Of a stretch of DNA of 64,000 nucleotides, positions 1 to 36,074 are shown piece after piece (within the stretch, counting starts at the first letter, position 1; every line of letters starts with the position of its first letter). Location of the stretch: assembly GCA_032358165.1 (NCBI GenBank), contig JAALGY010000020.1, forward strand, positions 1,736,001-1,800,000, read 5' to 3'. A model generated the notes under the pieces. It ran no database searches and was not told the DNA's origin. It saw only the letters and a program-made list of their open reading frames with translations. This stretch comes from Diplosphaera chodatii. Its lineage: Eukaryota; Chlorophyta; Trebouxiophyceae; Prasiolales; Stichococcaceae. Position numbers and translations under genes: made by a program.

Positions 1-82
1 TCGGCACTGCTGCCTGTTGCGGCTGCATGCAGCGTACCCTGTCGGATGTTTGCAGCGTAAACTTCTTCTTCACACACCGCAG

Positions 83-1851
83 GTACCCGCTGGACATGGT
101 GAGAGGGCGGCTCACCATCCAGGCAGGCAAGGGCGACCACTACCGCGGCATCGCGCACGCCACCAGCTCCATCATCCGGGAGGTAAGTCAGGCTCGCCTG
201 TACATGAAGCTGGGCCACCATTGGGTGGTGACAGCCATATCGCATCAAGAGGACCAGCTCACTTATCGCTTGATTCGTCACGCCCCACCGCACTCATGCA
301 GCTGTTCATCAACGATCATGGCACGGTAGCGTGCTTGACGCCAACACTTGACTCTGCTTGATTGCTCGGAGCATATGCTGAACGCAGCGTCCGTCAACCT
401 GCAGGAGGGTCTGCTTGCACTGTGGAGGGGGTGGCTGCCCAGCGTCATTGGCGTCATCCCCTATGTGGGATTGAACTTCGCAGTGTACGAGACGTCAAAG
501 GACATGATCTTGAAGCACTATGGTGCGGCAAACATCATCAGCTATGTGATGCACCAACGCATCAGCAGCGCTGCTTCGGCCCGGGGCTCCCACGTCACGA
601 GTTGCCACCCTGATGAATAAGAGTGGCTGCTGTGCTTGCAGAGCTGACGGATGAGCGGGACCTGAGCATTGTGACGAGGCTGGGGTGCGGCGCCTTTGCC
701 GGCACCTTTGGACAGACAGTGGCGTACCCGCTAGACGTTGTGCGGCGGCGCCTGCAGGTGAACGATGTGCGGTGCAGCACATGCAAGCAGTTGGGCAGCT
801 GCGCCAGTGTTGTTGCCGCACACGCAACAGGGCGCCAGCTGTATGCGCTTAGGTTGACCTTCTTTTGCTCCGCGCTTGCTGCGGCGACACGCTTGCGCAC
901 GCCTGGGAGAGCAGCAGGCTGCAGCTCACTATTTGCAGAGAGGCTGGCAACATCGCGCCAAGGGCCACAACCTGCACCCTGCCCGCTAACATGGTTGACT
1001 GTGGTGCGGTGCAGGTGTCGGGGTGGGCGGGCGCGTCGTCGCTGCACGCCGGCGAGGGCGGCACCTCCATCCGGTACAAGGGCATGGTGGACTGCTTCGT
1101 GCGCACCTGGCAGGAGGAGGGCTATCGCGCCTTCTTCAAGGTGGAGCGTCCTGAATCACAGTATCCAGCCAACCATATGACCTACCAACCAGGCGTAGCC
1201 TGTGATTACCGCCGCATGCCAGCCCCTCGGCAGTCGGTGCATCGAGTGATGCGTACCAGCACAAAGGGCATGTCAGGGGGCCGCCTCACATCGTCCGGTG
1301 CAATCTGGCCACATGCTGCTGGGGTTGCCGTCACAAATGTGCAACCAGCTCGAGGTTTTCCAGTGCTCGGTCTTGGCAGGGCAGGCTGCCGTCCTGCAAA
1401 TAATTCTCTTCCTGCAGCTGCCCCTCCTGTCACAGCAGCATCAGGCTGCAGGCCTCCCTGCGGCGAGGGCTGCGCCTCTGAAACTGTTCTGTTTGTGGCC
1501 TGGTGACGAAAACGATAGCGCAATACCCGACCTAGTCAGTGCCTCCTGCCGGCATGTGCAGCGTGCTTGCACGCACGCAGTGCTGGTGCAGGTGCTTGAA
1601 TGACGTCAAATCTATCCACTGAAGGCCTAATTGCGAAATAGCAACTGCTGAAGTGTTTTGTTATATGTGAAATGCACGGCAGCAGCTTAGCCGCTCTTGT
1701 AAGGTGTCATGGGCAACCTAACAGATTTGTTCTGTGTCCACAGGGGCTGTGGCCCAACTACATCAAGGTGGTGCCCTCCATTGCGCTGGCCTTCACCACT
1801 TACGAGCTGCTGAAGGAGATGATGGGTGTGCAGCTGCGCATCAGCTCGTGA
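83..1851 (+). CDS. ADNT1: Mitochondrial adenine nucleotide carrier, ADNT1-like (5' end outside window)
   Basis: Mitochondrial carrier family protein of the inner membrane; the closest plant relatives (ADNT1) exchange ATP and AMP. Exons in view are 83-182, 405-522, 642-757, 1015-1140 and 1744-1851 (stop TGA). Two carrier signatures are readable, YPLDMVRGR in the first exon and YPLDVVRRR in the third, each opening a repeat of about 100 residues with paired membrane helices. The second exon carries WRGWLPSVIGVIPYVGLNF, typical of repeat two, and the last ends ELLKEMMGVQLRIS, which closely resembles the C-terminus of plant ADNT1. The first repeat lies left of the window. Junction phases agree throughout. 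The subclass (ADNT1 rather than a CoA or Brittle-1 type carrier) rests on the C-terminal match and is likely but not proven. Confidence 0.85.
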
Positions 1852-2471
1852 CGGCCAGGCGGCGGGCCCAGATACTGTGGGGTGGCAACTGCTTGCGAAG
1901 TGTTTCGCTGACAAACGGGTTCAGCTTGAGGCAGCGGTGCAGCAATGGCAATGGCAGCACCGGCAAGCTCTGTGTCGTATGCTGGCTTGGTCCAGAGAAG
2001 CACCTCGAAACATGGTACTATCGCTCCCACACTCGAGCAGTATGGCCGATTCAAACAGATGATGGCCTGCATGCCTGATCATACAGTGCAGCCGACTGCA
2101 TGTTCGATCGTCACATGCTTCTTGCGCACTTGCAGCAGTTTCATGCTCTCGGTCTCGTCAAAGCTACTACTGCTCATGTGCCAAAAGTATCCCATTGCAC
2201 AGGCAATGCTCATGCATTTGCCTGCAACTCCTTGCGGTGGTGCCTGCATCCGAATCTCATTGCACACCACAGCTGGTTCCTGAAACGTTGACTGAAATCT
2301 GCATTGCTGCGAAGGTAGATCTGAAGATAGATTTGTGTTTCACAGAAGGCATGATGGTGTGCCTATACGGACCCCTGATATAGCGCAAACGGATCTGAGT
2401 GACATGAGCTGCATAATTGCTGAATATAGCATACGGTAGTACCAAATAGCACCGGGTTGTGGCCACGTACG
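1852..2471. other. Tail-to-tail intergenic region
   Basis: This stretch lies between the carrier gene (+) and the unrecognised gene (-). It should hold both 3' untranslated regions. I see no convincing coding exon; the short open frames on either strand lack splice support and family likeness. Confidence 0.5.
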
Positions 2472-5160
2472 TCAGTACAGATCGAAGTGTGCGCGATCAC
2501 GGAATCGCCGCGCCACGGTCTCATACATTCGCAGCAGCTCCGGCGCGTCACGGAACAGCGGCTGGTACGCCTCAATGCCGCTCAGCAGCTCCTCGCGCTT
2601 CACTGCCTGCATACACGAGCTGGCTATGAGGACTGAGCGGGGGCTGACATGCCCAGCCAACAATCGGTGGCCCGGAAGCACTAGCGCACAAACACCCCTG
2701 CCTACCAGCACGCCTGTCGCTGATGTAACCTCCACGGCTTGAGCTGCACAAGCCCCGAGGGTCGGCCCCGGAAGATCACAGCCAGGGTGTCGATCATTCG
2801 CATGAAAGCCTGCGGCCACGCTCACCGGGGCGAGGCGGTGGGGGCGGCCGTGGGGGGCATGCGGGGTGGTGGTCCAGGGCGGCGCCGGCTTCTGCGGCGG
2901 GTGCACCACCGGCTGCGGGTAGTTCTGCACCACTATCAGGTCCTTGGCCCCGATCTGGTCCAGCACGTAGTTGTCCTGCAGGGGCACCGGCGTGCACCCA
3001 TCAGCCGCGGCGGCTGGCAGGCATGCAGTAGGCACGGCGATAGCGTCTTCGGCAACCTGCAGCCAGCCCTCAGCTGCTCACATGTGGGCACGCAAGGGAC
3101 GTCGGTTGCCGGGCTCACCATTGTGGACAGGTAGTGGGAGGTCATGAACACGAACACGGTGTCGAACTTGTGGCGCTTCTTCTTCAGGCTGTCCACGACA
3201 AAGCGCCCGCGCTTGTAGAACTGCTTGATCGCCTGCCGGATTTTCTGTGGACAGCAACTCGCAGCGTGAACCATGTTGCTGTTGGCCACTGCTGAGGGAA
3301 GAGTGGATGGCGCAAATTGTGTCAGCTTGAAACGCTGAGAGTCGGCCGCTGGACGAAGTGTACACGTTAAGGGTGGGATCAGTCGCACCCCCTGTGTGCG
3401 GATGTCGCGCCCTGCCTGGGTGGTGATATAGAAGAGCACCGGCGCGCCGCTGCCGGGGGCTCCAGGCGTGCCATCGGCCTGCGCAGGCCGGCAGCACGCG
3501 CCTGGGCAATCCAGACGGATGTGCTGCATGGCATAGTGGACGCCCGCAGCGCTGATGGGCATCCGAGCCTGGTGTCGGGCAACGCCGGTCTGCTGGCTGC
3601 CCACAGCCAAACAAGAAGTCACACTGGTCGCCAGCTGCCCTGGGGTGTGCACAGGGGTGCCCAGGCGGTGGTGCTGCAGGGGTGGCAGTGGCGCCGCACC
3701 TGACGGCCGGGCGCCCAGCGGCGGGCGATGCGCAGGGTGGCGCGAGCACGCCGCAGGCACGCCTCCTTGTCCATGCCCTTGCACATGGACGCCCACCCCG
3801 GGTCCAGCAGCGGCGCCTGCATTCCGTGCGTCACACCACTGTTGGGGTGCTTGCGCAAGCGGCGCTGGCACTGCATTGCAGGACTCCAACTCCGGCAACT
3901 GACAGCCTATGGCTGAGGGTCGGGGATTCGTGATGCTTGCCAAGGACGGCAGGCATGTTAGCTTGTTCATGGCAGCCAGGTAGTACATCGTTGGTGTCAG
4001 CCCAGCAGCAGTGCATGAGGTGAAATCCTTGCAATGTGGGGTGTCGACATTGACGCCCGAAGACCTGCAGCAGGGGCGCGTCGGCGTTGTAGGGCGCCAG
4101 CGGGTCTACAGCGGCCAGGCCGGGGCCGCGGCCCCATTCCACCGGCAGCGTGGGCGCGTTGCGACCGGCGTCCGGGTTGAAGAAGAAGCTCTCGCGGTGC
4201 CGCGTCGGCCGCAGGATCGGCTGCCAGTCACGTGCCAGCCTGAGGCGCTGCACCTCCACCTGTAACAACAACCTATTGTTCTGAACAGTTGTCAGGTTGG
4301 GCTTTGGTAGTTGACCAACCTATTAAGCAAAGGGTCGGCGGTGCTTGGCACATGCAGCATGGCTCACGAGTAGTGCCCGTACGTCAGGGTTCATAGGCAG
4401 TCACATCGCAGAAATGCCCGATGGGACCATCCTCATTTATGGTGCGTCTTGTTGTACGTCTCCAGCACATGCCCCACCATGCACCTTTCGACCAAGAAGG
4501 TGCTGCGGGCCAACTGCGCCAGGGTACAGCTGCTTGATGGTGGTGATCACCGTCTGCGGCTCGGCTGCCCCGGCTCCCGCTTCAGCCTGACAGACAACAA
4601 GATTGTCGAGTGCTCCCACACTGGGTGAGAGGTTTGTGTTATAATTTCACTATTGTTGGTTTAAGGCCAAGGCAAGGCCAAGGCAAGATCCGGAGGTGCC
4701 TGCGCTGCCTCAGCTGCCTCTGTCAGGAGGGCCTCTGTACGAAGCCGCTCTGTTGCTGCAACTGCGTCGATGATAGACGGCCCGGCAGGCAGCTCACTCC
4801 ACCTGAGCAGGTGCAAATTGCAAGTGGCGGTTGACGAACACGAGTTTGCACACGAAAGAAGCGGATAGCTGTTGCAACCGGCACAGTACCTCAGCCATGT
4901 GGTATCATTGACAGGCATGTGCCCACCACTGCGGCATGAGCATGTGCCACCCATCCAGCAAAGAGCTGCTGGGCGGGCTGGGCAGCTGGGGCTGTGGCAG
5001 TGGCTGGCCATCACTGGTCACTTGCGGTGGGCACAGCCGTGCAGCCGCCTGCGACAGGACGAATGGCGGCAGCAGCGCCGGCTGCGGCTGCTGACCCCTT
5101 TGCGACGTCGCGTCGGCTGATGCGCTGCCGTCAGCGTCCGCTTCCCTGCCTGCTGTACGT
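2472..5160 (-). CDS. Unrecognised multi-exon protein, C-terminal part well modelled
   Basis: I do not recognise this protein. The last four exons join in phase: 3244-3119, 2975-2910, 2809-2750 and 2606-2472 (stop TGA). They encode about 108 residues with stretches such as KIRQAIKQFYKRGRFVVDSL, DNYVLDQIGAKDLIVVQNY and LLSGIEAYQPLFRDAPELL, ending RDRAHFDLY. The pattern of basic amphipathic helices and ordered hydrophobics looks like a folded eukaryotic protein, not a chance frame. Further upstream, likely exons include one near 4250-4070 with ESFFFNPDAGRNAPTLPVEW, one near 3830-3720 with MCKGMDKEACLRRARATLRI, one near 3480-3400 with GAPVLFYITTQAGRDIRTQ, and one near 4810-4680 with HLLRWSELPAGPSIIDAVAA. 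Their borders are unresolved. It may be one gene with the exons at 5590-6448. Confidence 0.5.
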
Positions 5161-5589
5161 TGCTGCCACAACTTCCGGCTGAGCCGCTGCGCACAGGAGC
5201 CGCCGAATTGCACACCGTGACTGCATTGTTCTGTCCGGCAGCATCCGTACCCACCAGAACAATAGACAGTACAACCAAGGCTCTTGTGCTGCCGTGCTAC
5301 ATCTGCAACATGTGTGTTACATATGTTGCTGCTGCTGCACCTGCTCTGAGGACTCTGTTGGCGCGCTGCCTGGCTGTCTTGCTGCTGGAGGTGCTGGAGG
5401 TAGGACTGCTGGCTTCACCGTCGGCGGGATATCACGCCCACTGAGCTGGCCTAGCAGAATTCTTGCCAGCGCCGCAGTTCCCCCTGCCTGTCAGGATGAT
5501 TGAACAGTGCCCGCTCTTGCAGGTCCATAGCCACATGCTGTCAAAGGGTGGCAGAAGGCACGCTGTTCAAGGCATGGCGAGACATCCAC

Positions 5590-24980: not shown

Positions 24981-27451
24981 CTAGTCCATCTTGTCAATGA
25001 TAGCCCTCGTGAACTCTGAGGTTTTGGCCTTCCCGCCCAGGTCGCCTGTGCGGTATTTGCCCTCCGCGATGACCCCCAGCACGGCATCCTACAAGCACAC
25101 TTTCACGCTTACACACTCGGGCGCATTTTGGCAGAGTTGAACCAAAGCATTATCCAGTGCGACATCGCACTCGACAGGCACATCGTGTTGGCGCAGGAGC
25201 ACACCTGGATGTTGTCTGCGTGCTCGTTCAGGTTGATGTGCCGCAGCATCATGCATGCTGCATGAGCAATAGCGAGGCGTCACGATGGTGCCAGAAGCGT
25301 TACTCATACACGAATGTGATGCCAACAGGGCAGGAGTGTTGAGCAGGTAGAAGACAGACACACCTGACAACAGGATGGCAGTGGGGTTGGCCAAGTCCTT
25401 GCCCGCGATGTCAGGCGCTGTGCCGTGCACTGCCTCCATCAGCGCCAGCCCGCCAGCACCTGCATGCACACAGCGCATGCTGTGGGTGCTGATGTCCGAG
25501 CTGGGGTACAAGTGGCGGAGGTTGCAACAGCAACGGCGCCATGTTTCCATGTGCCACTGACGAGGTTGTGAGGGTTAGAGGGAGCGGTCTGGGTGATACA
25601 CACCAACATTTGCCGATGGTGTCAGGCCCAGGCCGCCAATGAGGCCAGCGCACAGGTCGCTGATGATGTCACCCTGCAGCATTGTAGCAGACGCATTTGC
25701 TTTGCCTCTCATACAACTCAATTTTTTGCTGGCGGACAGGACACATCAACTATTGCACAGAAGCAGCGGCTAGCGACTTACGTAGAGGTTTGGCATCAGC
25801 TGCAATGGCAACAAAAATACTCATCAGCTTTGTGAACAAGGTATATACACAATCTGAACAATGCGCACACGTAAGCGGTACGTGCAACGCACCAGCATGT
25901 CATATTGTGTCGGGTCTCGTACGAGCTGCATGCATGCGTTGTCTACGATGACCTCGTGGTACACGATGTCAGGGTACCTGCAGGCACCGTCCCCAAGGAC
26001 GTCAGGGCTTAGTAGATCTGCGGTCCGCTTGCAGTTGCAGCAGCCCAAGCATTTGCAGCTGCACAGTGCCCGACTGGTCGTACAATGGGTCAAGCCATCA
26101 TGCAAAACACTTGAAAGCCCACTTCTCTGCCACCTCCCGTGCGCAGCGGATGAACAACCCGTCCGCCAGCTTCATGATATTCTGCAGAAAGCCAGCAAAA
26201 TGGCGCTCAGCAGCACACAGGGTTGTCACAGCAGAACTGCATCTTGACCATACCTTGACAGCATACTGGTGAGCGAAGCAGATCGGACAGCAGACGCACC
26301 GCTTTGTGGACGGCCGTGACTCGCTTGCGTCCATTGTCCCGGGCATACTGGAATGCGTACTCTGCCACCCGCATGCTGGCTGGCCGTGTGATCACCTTCA
26401 GTCATCAGACGACATAGTCGTGGAGCGGTTGTGGACATGCTGTGTCTTTGGTGATCGGATTGCTGCTGGCAAGCTGTTCAGCCAGTCCATATGCAGATAG
26501 ATCAGACCAAGACCACCTTAAGTGACTCCACAACTCCAGGAACCACTTCGTGCTCCAGCCCCGAGTACTCGCCCTCTGTGTTCTCACGGATGGTGATCAA
26601 ATCCACGCCATCATATTTAGTCTTATATCTGCGTTCAACAACCTCGTCATTAGCTGGTCCGAGTCCAAATTCACAGACAATGGTGAACTTGAGTCAAACT
26701 GCAGGAGAGTTCTGTCACCCGAAGCACCATGCAACATAGGCATGAAGCACTCAGCCGAGGGCGCACCCAGGTATCGACAAGCACGGTCGCACGTTGGCAT
26801 ACAGCTGCAGCTCTTTCCGCAGCGTCAGGTTCAAGCTGCGGAAGCCCTTGCCTATTGGGGTCGTCATTGGTGCCTTCAGCCCAATTTTGTGCTTCTGCAG
26901 CAGTGTAGCGCCACAAGCGTTGGGCATCAGCTTGCAGATAGGAGGCATTTCAGGGCAGGAGCGCAAGCCGCTGCCCTGTGGCACTGGTCATTGGTTGATT
27001 CAAGTAGGGGTCCTACCAGCACGGAGTCCAAGTTTTCCCTGGTGATGAAAGAGTTGGTACGGGGGTCCACTTGCTCAGCGATATCCTGCTCGTCCCACAC
27101 GATTGGCACGCCGCCGGCCGTGAAGATCTGCAGTGCATGGGATGTCCCGTGTGACCGCATACTGGCTGTTGTACGAAATCATCAAGGGCGTGGTCTGCAT
27201 GCATGTTTGCATGCAATTGCTCGCTTTGGGTGCAATTCATGCATCAAACAATATGTTGTGGCACTGCAAGGTCAACAAGCTGACATGAAGGGCCTGCTCG
27301 CCTTCTTGACCGACTCGCAGATCTCAGGGCCGATGCCATCGCCAGTGAACAGGGTGGCAGTGATCTTCTCATTGCCGCTGGCAAACCCGCGCTGGTTCTG
27401 TTTGGCGGCAGCGCGGAGCGCAGCACCAGCCGCTCTGCCGGCCCTCAGCAT
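24981..27451 (-). CDS. IDH5: NAD-dependent isocitrate dehydrogenase, catalytic subunit, 12 exons, 365 residues
   Basis: Mitochondrial matrix enzyme of the citric acid cycle; the catalytic subunit of the heteromeric NAD-IDH, like plant IDH5/IDH6. Exons 27451-27302, 27127-27017, 26894-26767, 26628-26517, 26395-26300, 26181-26111, 25977-25893, 25799-25782, 25673-25604, 25459-25364, 25257-25205 and 25088-24981 give an exact frame. The start [17 protein letters not shown] is an arginine/alanine-rich presequence. Then follow [82 protein letters not shown] and [19 protein letters not shown], all diagnostic. Exon 8 is only 18 nt (LMPNLY). Intron 1 has a GC donor (GCGAGC). Head-to-head with its regulatory partner at 33566. 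The symbol is by plant analogy. Confidence 0.95.
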
Positions 27452-27668
27452 AGCTCACTTTGCCGTCTGAATCCTCTAAGCTGGCGCTGTCAAGCTGCAC
27501 TATCAGCTGGTGGTTCCGCCCCGATCCCACGCTGCAGTGTGAAGACCTAAGCAGCAATCAGCTTGCACAACATCCAAGATCAGTGTCTACCAACACTTCC
27601 CTTGCAAGCCTGTTCGCGGCAAATGCTAGCAACTAGGCTCATGCTCCTCGACACACGTTGCAAATGCA
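27452..27668. promoter_or_regulatory. Left half of the IDH bidirectional upstream region
   Basis: About 217 bp lie between the catalytic IDH start codon and the transposon target-site copy. This is presumably the proximal promoter and 5' untranslated region of the catalytic gene, now cut off from the other half at 33225-33565. Confidence 0.5.
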
Positions 27669-27675
27669 GCAATGG
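27669..27675. repeat. Target-site duplication, left copy (GCAATGG)
   Basis: The 7 bp directly outside the left terminal inverted repeat. The identical 7 bp in the same orientation directly follow the right terminal repeat at 33218-33224. Confidence 0.8.
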
Positions 27676-28208
27676 CAGTCATGTAGGGCACCTTAACACT
27701 AGGCAAGAAAGGGTGGTTTTGATAGCAGAATTTCAGTGGGGCTGTGCCGATTGATAGCTGGTCCTGTGCAGATTGATAGCTGCGAACGCGGCTAAGTGCC
27801 GCCAGCACACAGCCCCTCAACATGCGCGACCCGTCTCAGAACATACTTTGCCATCTTGTCGGGGCCATCTGGTAGGGTGTGACCTCTCGCACCGGCGATG
27901 CGGCACGCTATACCGTCCTGCGTCGAGGACCCTCCGGCAGCTAAACCGGCAGCAGTCGAGGCCCACGCACAGTGACAGCCCCGCGTGCCGCAGCGGCGAA
28001 GGCTGGACAGTCCTGAGACTGCACTTTGCCGGGCAGACATGCGGTGGGGGCCTAGGCTGGCCGTGCACGGGTGTTTTTGGTCTGCAGGCTTGTCAGGCAT
28101 GGCGTCGTGCTGCGCGCGCCTTGGGCAAATGCAGCAGGTGAGCGGCAACCTGGGAGTGGGTCTGGCATCAGCAGCACCTTCTGTGCGGCTGTGCGCCCCG
28201 TACGCCTG
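27676..28208. repeat. Left terminal inverted repeat
   Basis: Matches 33217-32694 in reverse complement almost base for base; a 9-bp insertion near 28005 is the only length difference. It contains two copies of the 12-mer gattgatagctg at 27749-27760 and 27771-27782, a possible transposase-binding subterminal repeat. Open frames within it show no known protein. Confidence 0.88.
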
Positions 28209-29155
28209 AGTCTGCAGCGACATCGAAGCCTTTGCTCTGAGTCGGGTTGGGCGCGTCTCCGGGCTGTTAGCTGCCTGTCTGCGGCCGACTGCCCATCCGG
28301 GACGTCTAACTGGGCTTTACAGTCATATTACGTGCCCGCAACGATGCTTCCTGTCCCATCGGGCTGCTACTAGAAGGATTGCCTCCATGCACATCCATCA
28401 GATGCGATGCCCAGGTTCCATCGGTTGCATGAGAGAGCTGTCAAGCGAGCAAACAAGGCTCCCGCGTGATGCCATCACCCCCTGTAGGCCCTTTTACGTG
28501 CGGGCAACATTGGCACGTCGCAAAGCTGAAGCATTACATTGCACAACGCCCTGCGCTGCACATGCGCTTTCAGTGTTGGGAACCAGCATGGAAGCAGCTG
28601 CTGCTGTCAGCAAAGGCCTGAAACTGCCCACAGCAGATTGTCAGCTCCAGAAGCACCCGCAGATTGCTGGCGTGTAGCAGGTGCAGCACTGAGCATCAGC
28701 GCCATGGACGATCCACCACCGACAGCCGCAACCAGGCCAGCTGCTGTTGCAACTGTTGCCCTGTAACCGTTCAGACCCTACAGATACACACTCACAAAGT
28801 GTCCCGTTGCTTCTCAGTATGTGGCAGCCTCACTGTCATATGTACCAGCAGCGCAACATGCGTCAAGCTGCAACATACATCTACGCCAATGCTTGCACCT
28901 GCCATTTGGCTGCACCTCTCTCCTCTCTAGGATGTCCAGCTGCCTCTGCACGGGCAGCGAAGATTTCAGCTGCTTTTGCCTACAGACTGTACAGCACCCC
29001 TGAGTGCACATGGGATGGTCCTGTGCGGACGCTTGTACGCCTAACATGAAGTCTTGGCTGAACGCGAGCAGCTGAAGTGTTGTTGCTAAAGTGTTGCTGG
29101 TGCACGTGTATTGCATGTGCGGCCTGCAACACCATTGCTGGTTGCCAGCGGAAGA

Positions 29156-29205
29156 CACCTGGACTGAAAACCTGCACCTGGACTGGAAACCTGCACCTGG
29201 ACTGG
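29156..29205. repeat. Short tandem repeat, 19-bp unit, about 2.6 copies
   Basis: Unit cacctggactggaaacctg at 29156-29174 (one mismatch), 29175-29193 and a partial copy at 29194-29205, inside the transposon. Confidence 0.75.
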
Positions 29206-32186
29206 CTTCAGTAGTCGGTGCTCTCTAACCACACCGCTTGTTCCCTGCTGATATCGGTGGATTGCGTGGCGCTACGCTGTACTGGGACACCTCTCAAAGT
29301 GTCTACTTGAAAGCCTGCTGCTGGGTCCCTTCCACCTGCATCATGCAGACCACAAGCTCTTTGTGCAGTAGAGTGCAATTCCTAAGTGTGCACGTGTGGC
29401 ACACCCTGAGGCTATAGTGCCTGCATGCAGGCGAGTGACCTGAGAAAGGTCATCGCTCACACACTGCCGGCAGAGCGTTGCTGTGCAGCGCAGCAGCAGC
29501 GGGTGGGATAATCGACGCGTGCGCATACATACACCAGAACACTCTCACGTACTCCGTACACGGTCCAGTCCTGCATGTATGAAGCCTGCACAGCAATCAG
29601 TTTTTGCGCCAGGTTGTTGACATGCTGGACATGTCACTGTGATCTGCTGAAAGAAGCGATAGATGGTACTTGCATACCCAACTGCAACAAGCTCCCAGGC
29701 AAATTGTCTGCTCTCCCAATCAGATCATACCAATCGTGATTGCAGTGAACGTCCAGCACTCGCTGAATGTGGCATGCCTGGTGTCTGAAAGTCAACTGTT
29801 GACAGTAACCTCGCCACTGAGACTGCATACGTGTATCATATTGGATATTCGGCGGTCAAGATTGTGGCAAAACCCAGGGTTTGTTGCAGTGACCTGCAGT
29901 GTAGGAGTGATCTACTGATCCGTCACATTTGAGCATAAGAACAGGCACAGTCACCGCACTATGTGAAGTCGCACATGCACTTCTCAGACCAGTACTGATG
30001 GGGTTGTTGTCAACGGTGGACACCAGCGTTGCGACATATATAGCAGTGAAAGCAGGTGCCCTGCTGGCATCTCACCATGACATCGACAACAGTGACCAGC
30101 AGCAGAGCAGGGCGGTATATGCTTGATGACGGAGATCTCTGCTACGCTGGGATTGCTAGCAGGCAAGTGTCCTGCTTTGCCGCAAGTGGCGACGGTGCAG
30201 CGTCTACGTTGTGCGCAGGGGCGTCAGCGGTGATACAGTTGTATGCGCAGCATAGCAGCAATCAACGGAGTGCGATGTGAGGCATGTCATGAGCAGGCAT
30301 CGGCATTGCTGGTTACAAGTGGACCCCTGAATACTCCTGCATGCAACCTCGTGCTAGCTGACAGTCCTGTTCGCATAACCATCAGACTGCAGGCTGGCAA
30401 TGGCACATCCGGTCGGCAGCGCCCCAACAAAGGACATGGCCAAGATGCTGCTCCTGCGTTCCTCCTACAGTGGCCGCACCTTCACAACTTCCACCACAGT
30501 AAGGTTTGAGCTGTCGAATGTCCAGGTGATTCAGAGAGTGATACATTCACCACGGGGATGGACACCCGATTGATTGCGACATGACCTGCTATGTGCTCAA
30601 CTGGAACCATGCCTGCAGGTAGATACGACTGTTCCCGTCCACCAGCGTCAGTGAAACATCAGATGCAGCATTGCTTGTGGAGCTAGCACATGTAATGCTC
30701 GAGGACATAGCGGAAGTCCGTGCGCAGTGCGCAGTGCTTGAAGCTCAGTTTGCAATGCGCAGGATGCGCTGCCTGTGAGCGCAGGGCAAAGTGCAGGCGC
30801 ATGCCTGAGGACGCATTGTGTGCACGCAGAGCATGGTTCTGTTCCAGGCCATTCTACAAGGTATTCTGACACCGCCGCGCAGGTAGGAGCAAATGAGAGC
30901 CGCACATGGCGGTCCGGCCTGTATAGTTATTTCCATCGACCATAAGTATGTGGTATCCACTGCATTGGCAGCGTCCCAGTTCGTGTCGAACATGCTGCAA
31001 ACAAAGCGCTCCTCAGGTGTGGTCTTTAGGTAGCGGTAGATCTTCCCTGGGATGCAGGGTGCCATGTGGAGCAATTGTCATAGGCTTGGCAGGTCAATGT
31101 GCAAAAGCCGGCACGAATGTGTTTGGGAAGCGCTGGAACAGCGGTGAGGACAAGTTGCATGTTTGGTCCGGAGATTGAACTGCCGCTACCATGCACATCA
31201 GACCATGTATGCTTGTGTGTGAGTGCCGCCATTCGTATGGTGCAGGAGTGCCGAAGGGTGACTGCCGTGCACAGGTTTGCTCGTGCATCGAGTGGTCATC
31301 AATGCATGTCTGCCACTGATCAATTGTGACACCCCTGCTATTGCAGACCTACAGAACCATGACGCACTCCATCTGTCCGGACAAGCTGGCATGTGTAACA
31401 CCACATACAGGACAGGTGCCCTCTCCTGCACTTTGCAATGTCGTGCTGCTCCAGGACAAATACTGCTGTGCGCATGACTCCTGACAGACCACCAAATGTC
31501 ATGCAGCGTCCTTAGAGCACTAATGGTTCCAAGAGAAATAGGCTGCAGACACCACTGCCTGCATCTGGCAGGTGCAATGTGGGCAGCAACGCATGCTGCA
31601 GCCGCCTGCAGCTGGCACCCACATACGACGGTGATGTTGGCGGCAGACGCGGTGCCACCTGCGAGGGCATGAGATGTTCAGTGCCCAGCAGCACATCCAG
31701 CGTTTCAGTTGCAGCAGTTTGGCACATCAAGGGCTAGCTGCTTCAACACGAATGTGGCGCACCCGTGCAACCCACCGCAATGACTCGAGGACTGCGCCTC
31801 TGCTGGCTGGCTATGCCTTGTGGAAGTGTTCACTTGATGGCGACAGCACACCTGAATGGCATTGGAAGTTGTCAATGCAGCGCATCGCACCCGCTCACAC
31901 TGTGCAGCCTCGCACCCTCCCATCTAATTGCCACATCTGCTCATGTGCGCAATGGCTGCCATCATCCCTCAGAAGAGGAGAATTTGCTCTGCACAGCACT
32001 ACCAGCATGTGGTTCATGGGCACGATGCTGTACTGGCAGCATGCAAAATGTCGAAGCACAAACGAGATACACAGCTCATCAGCCTGGGAAGCTGCAGAAG
32101 TCCTATGTCATACGATACGTGGCAGCTGCTTGCCAATGTGCAGACTGCATCATGACATGTGTGGCGCACCAAGATGGTGGTGGTTC

Positions 32187-32208
32187 CAGGCACAGGCACA
32201 GGCACAGG
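32187..32208. repeat. Hexanucleotide microsatellite (CAGGCA)n
   Basis: About 3.7 copies of caggca in the transposon interior. Confidence 0.8.
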
Positions 32209-32368
32209 CTGCGCCTCAGTCGGCACTGAAAGCCGTGACTGCCGCGAGACTGCTGCCTGACGCTGTGCTGCTCAGCTGTGCTGCTAGGTTCTCGGAATTG
32301 TACATCAGCCACGGCTAGCATTGGTGCGCTGGTGGCAATCTGCGAGGCCTGCGCAGTGCGTCAATGTA

Positions 32369-32395
32369 AAGGCTCTTCTCTGAAAGAAGAGCCTT
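32369..32395. repeat. Perfect 11-bp hairpin near the inner edge of the right arm
   Basis: Arms aaggctcttct (32369-32379) and agaagagcctt (32385-32395) pair exactly around a 5-nt loop. It could be a terminator-like or transposase-recognition structure; function unknown. Confidence 0.7.
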
Positions 32396-32693
32396 GAGAG
32401 ACACCCAACGCTCTGCGATGTGTGGATGTCACAAGATCAGGATGGCAACGTGCACATAGGTCCGGCGGATCGCCACTCCGTGCAGTCAACGCACCTGACA
32501 TCTGATGGATGTGCATAGGGCGGACCCTCGGCCAGCAGCCTGATCGGCGCATGGCGATCCGTTCAGAGTACAGGATGTGACAGAAACGCATCCTGCAGAT
32601 TGCCGAGTATGCAATCAGCCAAGAGCACGCAGTATCAGCCCAAGAACGCACCCGGCCAGGGGCAGGGCAATGGCTTCGATGTCCATGCAAAAG

Positions 32694-33217
32694 CAGGCGT
32701 ACGGGGCGCACAGCCGCACAGAAGGTGCTCCTGATGCCAGACCCACTCCCAGGTTGCCGCTCACCTGCTGCATCTGCCCAAGGCGCGCGCAGCACGACGC
32801 CATGCCTGACAAGCCTGCAGACCAAAAACACCCGTGCACGGCCAGCCTAGGCCCCCACCGCATGTCTCCCCGGCACAGTGCAGTCTCAGGCCTTCGCCGC
32901 TGCGGCACGCGGGGCTGTCACTGTGCGTGGGCCTCGAATGCTGCCGGTTTAGCTGCCGGAGGGTCCTCGACGCAGGACGGTATAGCGTGCCGCATCGCCG
33001 GTGCGAGAGGTCACACCCTACCAGATGGCCCCGACAAGATGGCAAAGTATGTTCTGAGACGGGTCGCGCATGTTGAGGGGCTGTGTGCTGGCGGCACTTA
33101 GCCGCGTTCGCAGCTATCAATCTGCACAGGACCAGCTATCAATCGGCACAGCCCCACTGAAATTCTGCTATCAAAACCACCCTTTCTTGCCTAGTGTTAA
33201 GGTGCCCTACATGACTG
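32694..33217. repeat. Right terminal inverted repeat
   Basis: Reverse complement of the left repeat. Copies of the subterminal 12-mer (as cagctatcaatc) are at 33111-33122 and 33133-33144, the same 22-bp spacing as on the left. Confidence 0.88.
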
Positions 33218-33224
33218 GCAATGG
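33218..33224. repeat. Target-site duplication, right copy (GCAATGG)
   Basis: Identical and in direct orientation to 27669-27675, directly adjoining the right terminal repeat. Confidence 0.8.
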
Positions 33225-33565
33225 GGTCTCGTGACAAAGCGCGGGCCAACATGTGTCGGAAGGCAGGCGCACTCTCACATTTCATTTACATCTTACAGCT
33301 TGATACCTACATATTACAGGTTTCCGTTGATTGCTGTTGGGTCTCCCTGAAGTGGGCGGCTGCTCGAAGGGCCACCGAAACTGGTGTGACGGCAGGTTTA
33401 GGGCTCCAGATCATTGCTTGCAAACAGGCTACTCACGGTGGCGTGAGCCTCATCGCATAGTCGTGGGAGGCCAACCGTCCACGAAAGACCTCACAGAGTT
33501 TGCACAACAACAGAGCAAATTGGTTTGGCTGGGTGCACGTACTGTCACACAGTTGCGCGGGCAAC
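33225..33565. promoter_or_regulatory. Right half of the IDH bidirectional upstream region
   Basis: About 341 bp between the transposon and the start codon of the regulatory IDH subunit; presumed proximal promoter and 5' untranslated region. Joined to 27452-27675 it would form a shared region of roughly 565 bp. Confidence 0.5.
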
Positions 33566-36074
33566 ATGCTTAGGCAGGCTGCGCAGCGGCTTCTGGGGGG
33601 ATCTACACGGCGCCACAATGACCTGCTGGCAGCTGCGACATGCGGGGTGAGTTGGCTTGTGGATCAGCCGAAGACTCTGCCCGGACGATGGCGCAGTACT
33701 CTGCTGCGGTTCTCTGCAGACATTGGAACGCTGCTCAAAAGCACTGTGTGCGACGTCGCCTTGGAACCGACAGCGCAGTCTCTGTCGTGTTGCAGGGCCG
33801 GTCGATCATGACGTACGTGCCGCTGCCCGGCGATGGCCGCCCGCATGTGGTGACCCTCATTCCAGGAGACGGCATTGGGCCGGAGGTGACTGACGTGGTC
33901 ACGAAGGTGGTCGACGTGCTGGGGGCACCTCTGGTTTGGGAGCGGTGCGTCAACAGTTCGCTTGATGCTGCAAGCATGTGCATTACCCAACTCTCATGCT
34001 CACGGGCACTGGCAGATCCCCAGCAAAATCAGCTCCTGAAATGTATGCCACCAACATGCAGGTTCGACAACATCTCCGGCACCAACCAGCACGGCCAGCC
34101 AAACGATATCGTGCCTGAGGACATCCTGGCATCGATCAAGCGGAATGGCGTCTGCCTGAAAGGCACCCTGTTCACGGCATTGGACAAGAGCACCAGCACT
34201 CAGTCCCTGAATGTGCAGGTACACCCATAACGGCACCACCATGCTGCTTGTCACATGCATGGCTTTCAATGGCACGCGACACACATCACTGTCAGATGAC
34301 ATTATTGTACAGGATTTTAACGAGGCAACCCTGATCAAGATGTCGTGGAAAGTGCAGATGCGGAAGAGGCTGGATACATACGCCAATCTGGTGCATGGCT
34401 TCTCGATGCCAGGGCTAAAGACACGCCACGACAACATTGATATTGTCGTGATTCGGTGAGCTACGGCCCCGCATGCCTCATGCCAGATGGAGTGGACACT
34501 GTAAAACGCACTCTGTCATCACGTCTTGTGGATGCATTCGCCAGGGAAAACACGGAGGGTGAGTATTCGGGGCTTGAGCACGAGGTGAGGTTGCAGCCCA
34601 AATGTTGTCACTGATGACACTACCAGGCATGCCATCGGACTCTGCCTCTAAGGCATGCAAGATTTCCACAGCTTGAACTGGCATGCGGTGTTCTGTAGGT
34701 GGTGCCTGGGGTGGTGGAGTCGCTGAAGGTGCTGTCCTCAGCTTGTTTCACAGGATGTGCTGAACAAAGGACAACATGGGTGTATGGCATTGATGCAATT
34801 TGGTGTGCATACGCAGGTGATCACAGCCGAGAAGTCACGGCGCATTGCAGAGTACGCCTTCGAGTATGCAGTGCTCAATGGACGCAAACGTGTGACGGCA
34901 ATCCATAAGGCCAACATCATGAAGCTGTCAGACGGCCTGTTCCTCAGGGTGCGTGGGTGTTGGCACAAACATGCAAATGTGTGCATAGCAGTGAAGCTTT
35001 GCATTGGAGCTCAATCACAGCTGTTGAACAATCGGAGAATTTACCTGGTGTTTCAGCTGCACAGGAGTGCCAAAAGGTGGCGCAGGACTTTCCTACAGTA
35101 GAGTTCAACAGCATGATCGTTGATAACACATGCATGCAGCTGACAGGGCGGCCAGATCAGTTTGATGTCATGGTGCGCTACTGCAAAAGTCTGGGTACAT
35201 GGTGCCTACAGTCAACCAAACGACCGAGAAACAATCTTCTCATCTAGCATATACACATGCAGGTCACACCCAATCTGTATGGCAACCTCATCACCAACAT
35301 TGCAGCAGGCAAGCTTGATGCGCCCTGCTCATTGAGCCGTGCCATATCTGGCAGCTGGAGTCATCTATGCAAATGCACCACGTGTGTAATTGTCTGAATC
35401 CTGTACGATGGTGGTCCCTGTTGCAGGCCTGTGCGGCGGTCCTGGTGTCTGCCCAGGAGTCAATGTTGGCAAGGTGCGCACCCTGGCCATAACCACAGGG
35501 TGGGTTCTTGCTACGTCCTCAGCTCCTGACTGGTGCTGAGAGGTGCAGCAACTTTGCGCAGGATGTCGCCATATTCGAGCAGGGCGCGCGGCATGTGGCT
35601 AAGGACATTGTGGGCAAGGGCATTGCCAACCCAACGGCGCTGCTACTAGCCACATCCATGCTTCTTCGACATGTCCAGATGCACACGTTTGCTGACAGGT
35701 ATACCCGCAGGGTGGTTGCACACAGCTGACCGGCTTGGCTCTTCTGAGCGCCGTGGGTTCCCTGCGTCCCAGCATGACATCAACGCATTGTGTTGCTTAA
35801 TGGTGTGACAGATACAAATATGTGTGCCCTGTCCCTGCAGGCTTGAGGATGCTGTCATGGGGGTGATTGCAGCGGGAGACCCGTCACTTGTAACCCCAGA
35901 TATTGGTGCGCGACACGCATGCGCACTGTGTTGCATCTTCGAGCCGGAGGGAGCACCCGCAAACCTGCTTTTCTCCAAACGGGTCACATCAGGCTCCACC
36001 TTTTGGCTGCTGCAGGCGGGACCGGAACAACCAAGTCATTTACAGATGCTGTCATCAAGACTCTGAAGCCCTGA
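33566..36074 (+). CDS. IDH1: NAD-dependent isocitrate dehydrogenase, regulatory subunit, 13 exons, 382 residues
   Basis: Regulatory partner of the catalytic subunit in mitochondrial NAD-IDH, like plant IDH1/IDH2. Exons 33566-33646, 33796-33944, 34062-34218, 34358-34455, 34545-34584, 34699-34728, 34817-34948, 35065-35172, 35263-35308, 35427-35473, 35562-35698, 35841-35905 and 36016-36074 close exactly. [18 protein letters not shown] is a mitochondrial presequence. Family signs: [53 protein letters not shown] (catalytic subunits have LRKEL here), [40 protein letters not shown] and [19 protein letters not shown] (catalytic subunits have the [12 protein letters not shown] motif here), ending [14 protein letters not shown]. 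Those differences place it in the regulatory branch. Intron 9 (35309-35426) has a GCAAGC donor. The symbol is by plant analogy. Confidence 0.93.

Follow-up and report, generated by a model that had tools for sequence, protein, structure and literature searches.

A recently mobile 5.5-kb transposon in the green alga Diplosphaera chodatii, its likely 8-kb partner elements and partner copies with missing introns

The window analysed here is a stretch of 64,000 nucleotides from Diplosphaera chodatii (contig JAALGY010000020.1). Between two copies of the 7-mer GCAATGG it contains a DNA transposon of 5,542 bp (window positions 27676-33217). The termini of the element are CAGTCATGTAGGGCACC and its inverted ends, which extend to 28239 and 32663, are 564 and 555 bases long, with 12 mismatches and 9 gap columns between them. 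A preliminary description of this DNA had reported near-identical arms at 27676-28208 and 33217-32694. These have exactly 5 mismatches and one 9-base gap, and the repeat reaches further than was described. GCAATGG, which had been placed directly outside both ends, is present there. The features of the locus are:

27669..27675, + strand: left 7-bp target site duplication, GCAATGG; the empty paralogue on C7 has it once, as GCTATGG
27676..28239, + strand: left terminal inverted repeat, 564 bp, starting CAGTCATGTAGGGCACC
27676..27855, + strand: left outer ~180 bp, common to the 8-kb partner elements at about 90-96% over 152-186 bp
27737..27780, + strand: two 22-bp subterminal repeats in tandem, TGGGGCTGTGCCGATTGATAGC and a variant of it, seen in the end of the partners too
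28240..32662, no strand: interior, 4.4 kb, without a recognised gene
32663..33217, - strand: right terminal inverted repeat, 555 bp
33038..33217, - strand: right outer ~180 bp, common to the 8-kb partner elements
33111..33154, - strand: mirror pair of the 22-bp subterminal repeats
33218..33224, + strand: right 7-bp target site duplication, GCAATGG

The outer 180 bp or so are presumably the region recognised by the transposase, and the 22-bp repeats are candidate binding sites for it.

The 85.6-Mb assembly was searched with the terminal 24-mer, allowing up to 3 mismatches. There were 17 forward and 16 reverse matches, 32 of the 33 being exact and one having 3 mismatches. The reversed pattern had 0 matches in the same assembly and the matches are therefore not due to chance. 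They represent 17 elements, 13 of the 5.5-kb type and 4 of an 8-kb type, with inverted ends of 177-607 bp across the family. Two are at contig ends with a single flank and were left out of the duplication count. Among the 15 whose flanks can be read on both sides, an exact 7-bp direct duplication is present in 12, the 7-mer differing between elements; one (L019) matches at 6 of the 7 bases, and the duplication is missing from two (L013 and L018). Over 5,542 bp, nine of the 5.5-kb copies are separated by no more than 5 substitutions (0, 1, 4 or 5). A paralogous site on C7 (L066) matches the joined flanks of the window element across the junction, at 304 of 393 positions; there the 7-mer is single and uninterrupted.

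Dispersed near-identical copies, precise ends, a duplication of fixed length and one empty paralogous site identify the 17 elements as class II elements with inverted ends. The window element is thus a DNA transposon, as had been proposed, and the suggested search for further copies with duplicated flanks bears this out. The element is recently mobile. Very long, near-identical arms with no recognised genes inside might also be produced by an inverted duplication of host DNA with 7-mers matching by coincidence, but this is ruled out by the 17 elements with the same ends, the different exact 7-mers at 12 of 15 and the uninterrupted paralogous site.

The interior of the window element has no similarity to that of the 8-kb partners. 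A tblastn search of the element with the spliced transposase model of the partners, its relatives P0001 and P0002, and the second partner gene (gene 2) found nothing at E up to 1, in agreement with the earlier statement that a recognisable transposase is absent. It had also been suggested that interior translations be compared with protein profiles; the longest interior frame (227 codons), the sole one scanned, has no match in Pfam. Of 200 dinucleotide-shuffled versions of the interior, 18 have a frame of at least 227 codons. That the interior is captured host DNA was considered and rejected: among the matches listed, 28209-32693 is matched in full or nearly so only by the 13 copies of the 5.5-kb type, and no parent sequence was seen.

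The four partners (L022 to L025, on C37, C17, C12 and C21) are 8.1-8.8 kb in length, with two genes each. They are like the 5.5-kb type only in the outer ~180 bp, where the ends of the window element match theirs at 90-96%. One of the genes, made up of four exons, is transposase-like; cysteine and acidic residues are conserved in its protein, and its spliced model is 1,030 aa. In a search against 5.8 billion sequences the model matched P0001, a protein of Coprinopsis, at E 9.4e-12. It matches P0002 at E 4.8e-56, with 54% over the C-terminal 171 aa, and this alignment spans exon joins. A profile built from three proteins, used to look for further homologues, retrieved P0002 alone. There is a frame break in the transposase gene that is common to three of the four partners, and the remaining one deviates close to the N terminus, which weakens the case for present activity. 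Against the PDB, the C-terminal 234 aa of the transposase had no match at E up to 1. Among viral contigs there were 29 pattern matches, none of them a relative. An NCBIfam scan of four frames gave only a line for class A beta-lactamase, at E 0.026, far under its cut-off. Element ends were not found for the relatives on C29 and C38 within 836000-846000 and 26500-34000. Gene 2 has no match in Pfam (E up to 10), PADLOC (0.1) or the PDB (1).

The window element has the same ends as the partners and no recognised transposase of its own, and a transposase-like gene is present in the partners with those ends. Because a transposase-like protein is encoded by elements with the same ends, the window element looks non-autonomous.

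Two of the partners are missing introns. In L024 (C12:1130094-1138191) all five GT-AG introns of gene 2 are precisely absent, with 1 substitution relative to L022 over 8,098 bp. In L025 (C21:1032186-1040836) the first GT-AG intron of the transposase gene, one of its three introns, is absent just as precisely. By inspection, divergent relatives on C29 have introns at the positions of transposase intron 1 and gene 2 introns 1 and 2, the three of the six that were checked, and for these three the absence is therefore a loss. It is plausible, and on balance somewhat probable, that this DNA transposon family is rewritten via its own spliced RNA, with reverse transcripts of element mRNAs converting copies to the intron-less form. 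Intron loss in DNA transposons, and a reverse transcriptase-mediated model for it, have been reported for CACTA transposases (PMC4158355); there the loss was inferred between family consensus proteins, whereas here the copies are 1 substitution apart in 8 kb.

It is possible, if rather doubtful, that errors of assembly or polishing account for the introns absent from L024 and L025, or that these were deleted separately with short direct repeats as the guide. The gaps are seen at the level of the assembly, and there are short repeats at some intron ends, reaching 8 bases at the 97-bp intron. However, the repeat amounts to a single base at the 111-bp and 133-bp introns, and all six gaps can be placed exactly at GT-AG. 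Five of the gaps are together in L024 and none of these five is in the other three partners. In L024 the reading frame also runs through the five joins and is open for 619 codons, and this copy bears its own 7-bp duplication. Recent gain of the introns, as introners, by the copies that carry them is very improbable. A difference in introns between near-identical copies suits gain as well as loss, but genome matches to the 133-bp intron are confined to the 3 expected places, and the same holds for a 236-base segment of the 239-bp intron. In addition, the three introns checked are at the same positions in relatives that are only 77-78% alike in the DNA of gene 2, or 31-54% alike, piece by piece, in the transposase.

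The transposase of these elements is probably a divergent member of the KDZ group, judging from its sequence relatives. P0001 carries CxC4 (E 1.2e-46), which is described as associated with KDZ transposases. The C-terminal region of P0001 is like that of the partner model (31% identity over 153 positions), although P0001 has only 21-23% identity to P0002 over full alignments and the partner protein does not match the CxC4 model. By eye, the partner protein has aligned cysteines and a SWIM-like motif, C-x-C..C-x-H. D497, D832 and E886 of P0002 (D189, D524 and E578 in the alignment listing) are invariant in all three aligned proteins, and may be the catalytic D, D and E. An AlphaFold model of P0002 with P0001 has a mean pLDDT of 27.9.

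The Pfam KDZ model itself (PF18758) is matched weakly, by P0001 (E 0.041, profile positions 76-163) and by a C29 relative (E 0.0097, positions 76-210, in a register consistent with P0001). These are two of five related proteins, both under the curated cut-off. Pfam scans gave no KDZ match for P0002, the C38 relative or the transposase of the partner element, which matched no transposase model, and the KDZ match was again absent when the exact C38 sequence and a shortened P0002 were rescanned. Across the genome, at E up to 10, the KDZ profile matched 3 other places and no 8-kb element. The CxC4 profile had 0 matches in the genome and 0 in the controls, and is hence uninformative.

In PMC12730594, the fungal TET+ Kyakuja-1_LB and Kyakuja-2_LB are described as having 7-bp duplications, 5'-CA..TG-3' ends, no inverted ends and a TET/JBP gene. 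The elements described here share the 7-bp duplication and the CA..TG ends and have a probable KDZ relative where those have a KDZ-type transposase. They differ in their inverted ends of 177-607 bp and in a second gene without a family match. What is new here is the long inverted ends, the second gene without a family match and an interior unrelated to that of the partners. Kyakuja-3_cRei of Chlamydomonas, compared by its description in PMC10828217, is likewise a KDZ-assigned element in a green alga with inverted ends and recent movement, but left an 8-bp duplication. Zisupton and Dileera, also of the KDZ group, have 8-bp duplications (PMC12730594).

The preliminary description had held that the features fit no known superfamily. 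This is not supported, given the CxC4 protein to which the partner protein is related and the Kyakuja elements; there is no need for a new superfamily, since 7-bp duplications together with CA..TG ends have already been reported for Kyakuja, which belongs to the KDZ group. Of its phrase 'new or poorly described algal element', poorly described is fair and algal fits the TTTAGGG arrays seen at some contig ends, while a place outside the known superfamilies is not upheld.

It is unlikely that the KDZ likeness is superficial and that the family belongs to another or undescribed superfamily with duplications of about 7 bp, such as hAT7, Dada, a MULE variant or a new one. The KDZ matches are sub-threshold, in two of the five proteins. 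hAT7 of rust fungi makes 7-bp duplications (PMC12730594) and Dada makes duplications of 6-7 bp, but Dada-U6 and Dada-U1 are described without inverted ends (PMC3706591). The ends here are long, and no Rfam family was found in window 27600-33300, which concerns the window copy only. The SWIM-like motif recalls MULE proteins, but MULE duplications are 8-11 bp and those here are 7 bp. KDZ was the sole transposase model to appear among the Pfam matches of the partner transposase and its relatives, with no hAT or MULE model, and the annotated homologue P0001 has the KDZ-associated CxC4.

Taken with the probable KDZ membership, it is likely that the window element is a recently mobile non-autonomous transposon moved in trans by the partner transposase, and that spliced partner transcripts have been copied back at least twice. 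The protein made by L022-L025 would be the enzyme, a putative DDE enzyme of the KDZ group acting in trans. It would bind the common ~180-bp ends and the 22-bp repeats, cut the window element out and insert it by a 7-bp staggered cut that leaves the 7-bp duplication, so that movement would be cut-and-paste. Copying of spliced transcripts back into element DNA would have occurred at least twice because L024 lacks the five gene 2 introns and L025 lacks transposase intron 1.

A single genome holds the whole set of parts: copies of a non-autonomous element that are almost identical, a candidate partner that has genes and the same ends, and a duplication fixed at 7 bp. This branch of transposons is barely recognised by Pfam, and the little-known transposition chemistry of the group would become testable in an alga. 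The intron-less partners are a nearly fresh case of precise intron loss, which has mostly been inferred between species. If the intron-less copies are real, they would represent a case in which RNA served as the template for editing a class II element, and did so within a very short time.

The element in the window is real, recently mobile and non-autonomous, and its mover was most likely a divergent transposase, probably of the KDZ group. It is arranged as follows:

27676-33217, window element, 5,542 bp
27669-27675 and 33218-33224, target site duplication GCAATGG, directly abutting both element ends

Taken over its whole length, the inverted repeat measures 564/555 bp and contains 12 mismatches and the 9 gap columns of a single 9-base gap. 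The preliminary description had reported near-identical arms, with GCAATGG immediately outside both ends, and this holds, there being exactly five mismatches and one 9-base gap over the span it compared.

Copies were sought in the 85.6-Mb, 55-contig assembly containing the window, using the terminal 24-mer with up to 3 mismatches. A total of 33 occurrences were identified (17 forward, 16 reverse; 32 exact), against 0 for the reversed-pattern control. Further copies, whose absence the preliminary description had listed among the things that would speak against transposition, are thus present, with 17 elements carrying the window-type 24-mer. The interior of the window element is found in 13 of these; nine are separated by 0-5 substitutions and four are older, being 42-77 substitutions away from the nine. 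One window-type copy (L012) is 4 bases short due to a contig end. The remaining four elements are 8,098-8,778 bp and have only the outer ~180 bp in common with the window type. Contig C17 breaks off 4 bases short of completing a window-type element (2412815-2418352), and C19 opens at the first base of one (1-5542). This points to the near-identical repeats as places where the assembly is interrupted.

An exact 7-bp duplication flanks 12 of the 15 copies with both flanks, all 12 being different; L010 and L012, at contig ends, are outside the 15. L019 matches at 6 of 7 positions, and L013 and L018 have no target duplication, both flanks being readable. Read along the element, the first base of all 12 exact duplications is C or G, which amounts to a weak preference. 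L013 (C17:1089296-1094837) and L014 (C14:750053-755594) are identical inside, with the same four private substitutions, although only L014 has the duplication. Its absence from L013 may be due to ectopic recombination or a mis-join.

The empty-site search covered the insertion site of the window element, one of the 15. The flanks of the window element, joined with one 7-mer, match C7:1609502-1609641 at 86%, where a single GCTATGG replaces the element and its two GCAATGG. Across this junction, 304 of 393 positions align in a longer comparison, with 7 gaps. The C7 site is paralogous, not allelic. Arrays of TTTAGGG, the plant-type telomere repeat, consistent with a green-lineage host, are at the ends of C7 and C14, at the starts of C18 and C24, and in some cases inside contigs (at least 191 forward and at least 50 reverse pattern matches).

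Zisupton and Dileera differ from this family in having 8-bp rather than 7-bp duplications, according to PMC12730594. TET+ Kyakuja, in the same paper, shares the 7-bp duplication and has CA..TG ends but, unlike the family described here, no inverted repeats. One insertion in Chlamydomonas that has been placed in Kyakuja combines imperfect inverted ends with an 8-bp duplication (PMC10828217). Zisupton and Kyakuja are also reported in Chlamydomonas relatives (PMC8226300). The 7-bp duplication therefore requires no new superfamily, since Kyakuja has already been described with one, and the earlier view that no textbook superfamily fits is not supported, although the combination of features matches none of these descriptions exactly.

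Each of the four 8-kb elements (partners L022-L025) contains two genes, which point from the element ends towards the interior. Four exons are modelled for the transposase-like gene, with introns of 133, 102 and 117 bp. By eye, its protein shows C-x-C pairs, together with a C-x-C..C-x-H motif of SWIM-like appearance and a block near the C terminus that is conserved. L022, L023 and L024 have a common frame break within this C-terminal region; L025 is open there, with a frame shift near the N terminus. Gene 2, 619 codons in L024, matched no recognised family. Searches for homologues of the transposase over 5.8 billion sequences (7,996, 47 and 7,996 candidates scored) found two: P0001 of Coprinopsis (E 9.4e-12), which carries CxC4 and a weak KDZ match, and P0002 (933 aa, from a 2,994-bp contig), which matches the C-terminal 171 residues at 54%. 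More relatives are present in the genome that contains the window, on C29, C37, C38, C26 and C27. The C29 relative matches the Pfam KDZ model (E 0.0097, profile positions 76-210); P0002, the C38 relative and the partner protein itself have no match to it. KDZ support is thus seen in two of five related proteins (P0001 and the C29 relative), both scoring under the cut-off. At C29:839049-842452, a transposase relative that closely resembles P0002 contains both introns and stops; no element ends were found around it within a 10-kb stretch. Three matches to the Pfam KDZ model that exceed its cut-off, at C38:10391-10573, C39:8360-8542 and C37:1924465-1924647, are probably another KDZ family in this genome; when the partner transposase, P0001 and P0002 were compared with these loci by tblastn, no hit had an E value below 0.59.

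Apparent intron loss in the partners is an unexpected side result. When the four are aligned, L024 shows five gaps and L025 a single one, each corresponding exactly to one intron:

C12:1130094-1138191, L024, lost gene 2 introns of 239, 111, 97, 126 and 107 bp, all GT-AG
C21:1032186-1040836, L025, lost transposase intron of 133 bp, GT-AG

Otherwise L024 differs from L022 by 1 substitution per 8,098, and its gene 2 frame is open across all five joins. An assembly fault or separate deletions are a possible but less likely source of these gaps. Repeated introners are ruled out for the 133-bp and 239-bp introns, because the former and a 236-base stretch of the latter have no genome match beyond three expected copies each. 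By inspection, divergent C29 relatives carry introns at the positions of the 133-bp transposase intron and of introns 1 and 2 of gene 2, so for these three the intron-bearing state is the older. Among the literature matches listed, titles and abstract openings describe neither the window element nor copies lacking introns inside a single family of DNA transposons. For CACTA transposases, a comparison at the level of families led to the proposal of a mechanism similar to the one favoured here (PMC4158355). The simplest reading of the missing introns is conversion, in which reverse transcripts of spliced RNA would turn partner copies into intron-less versions.
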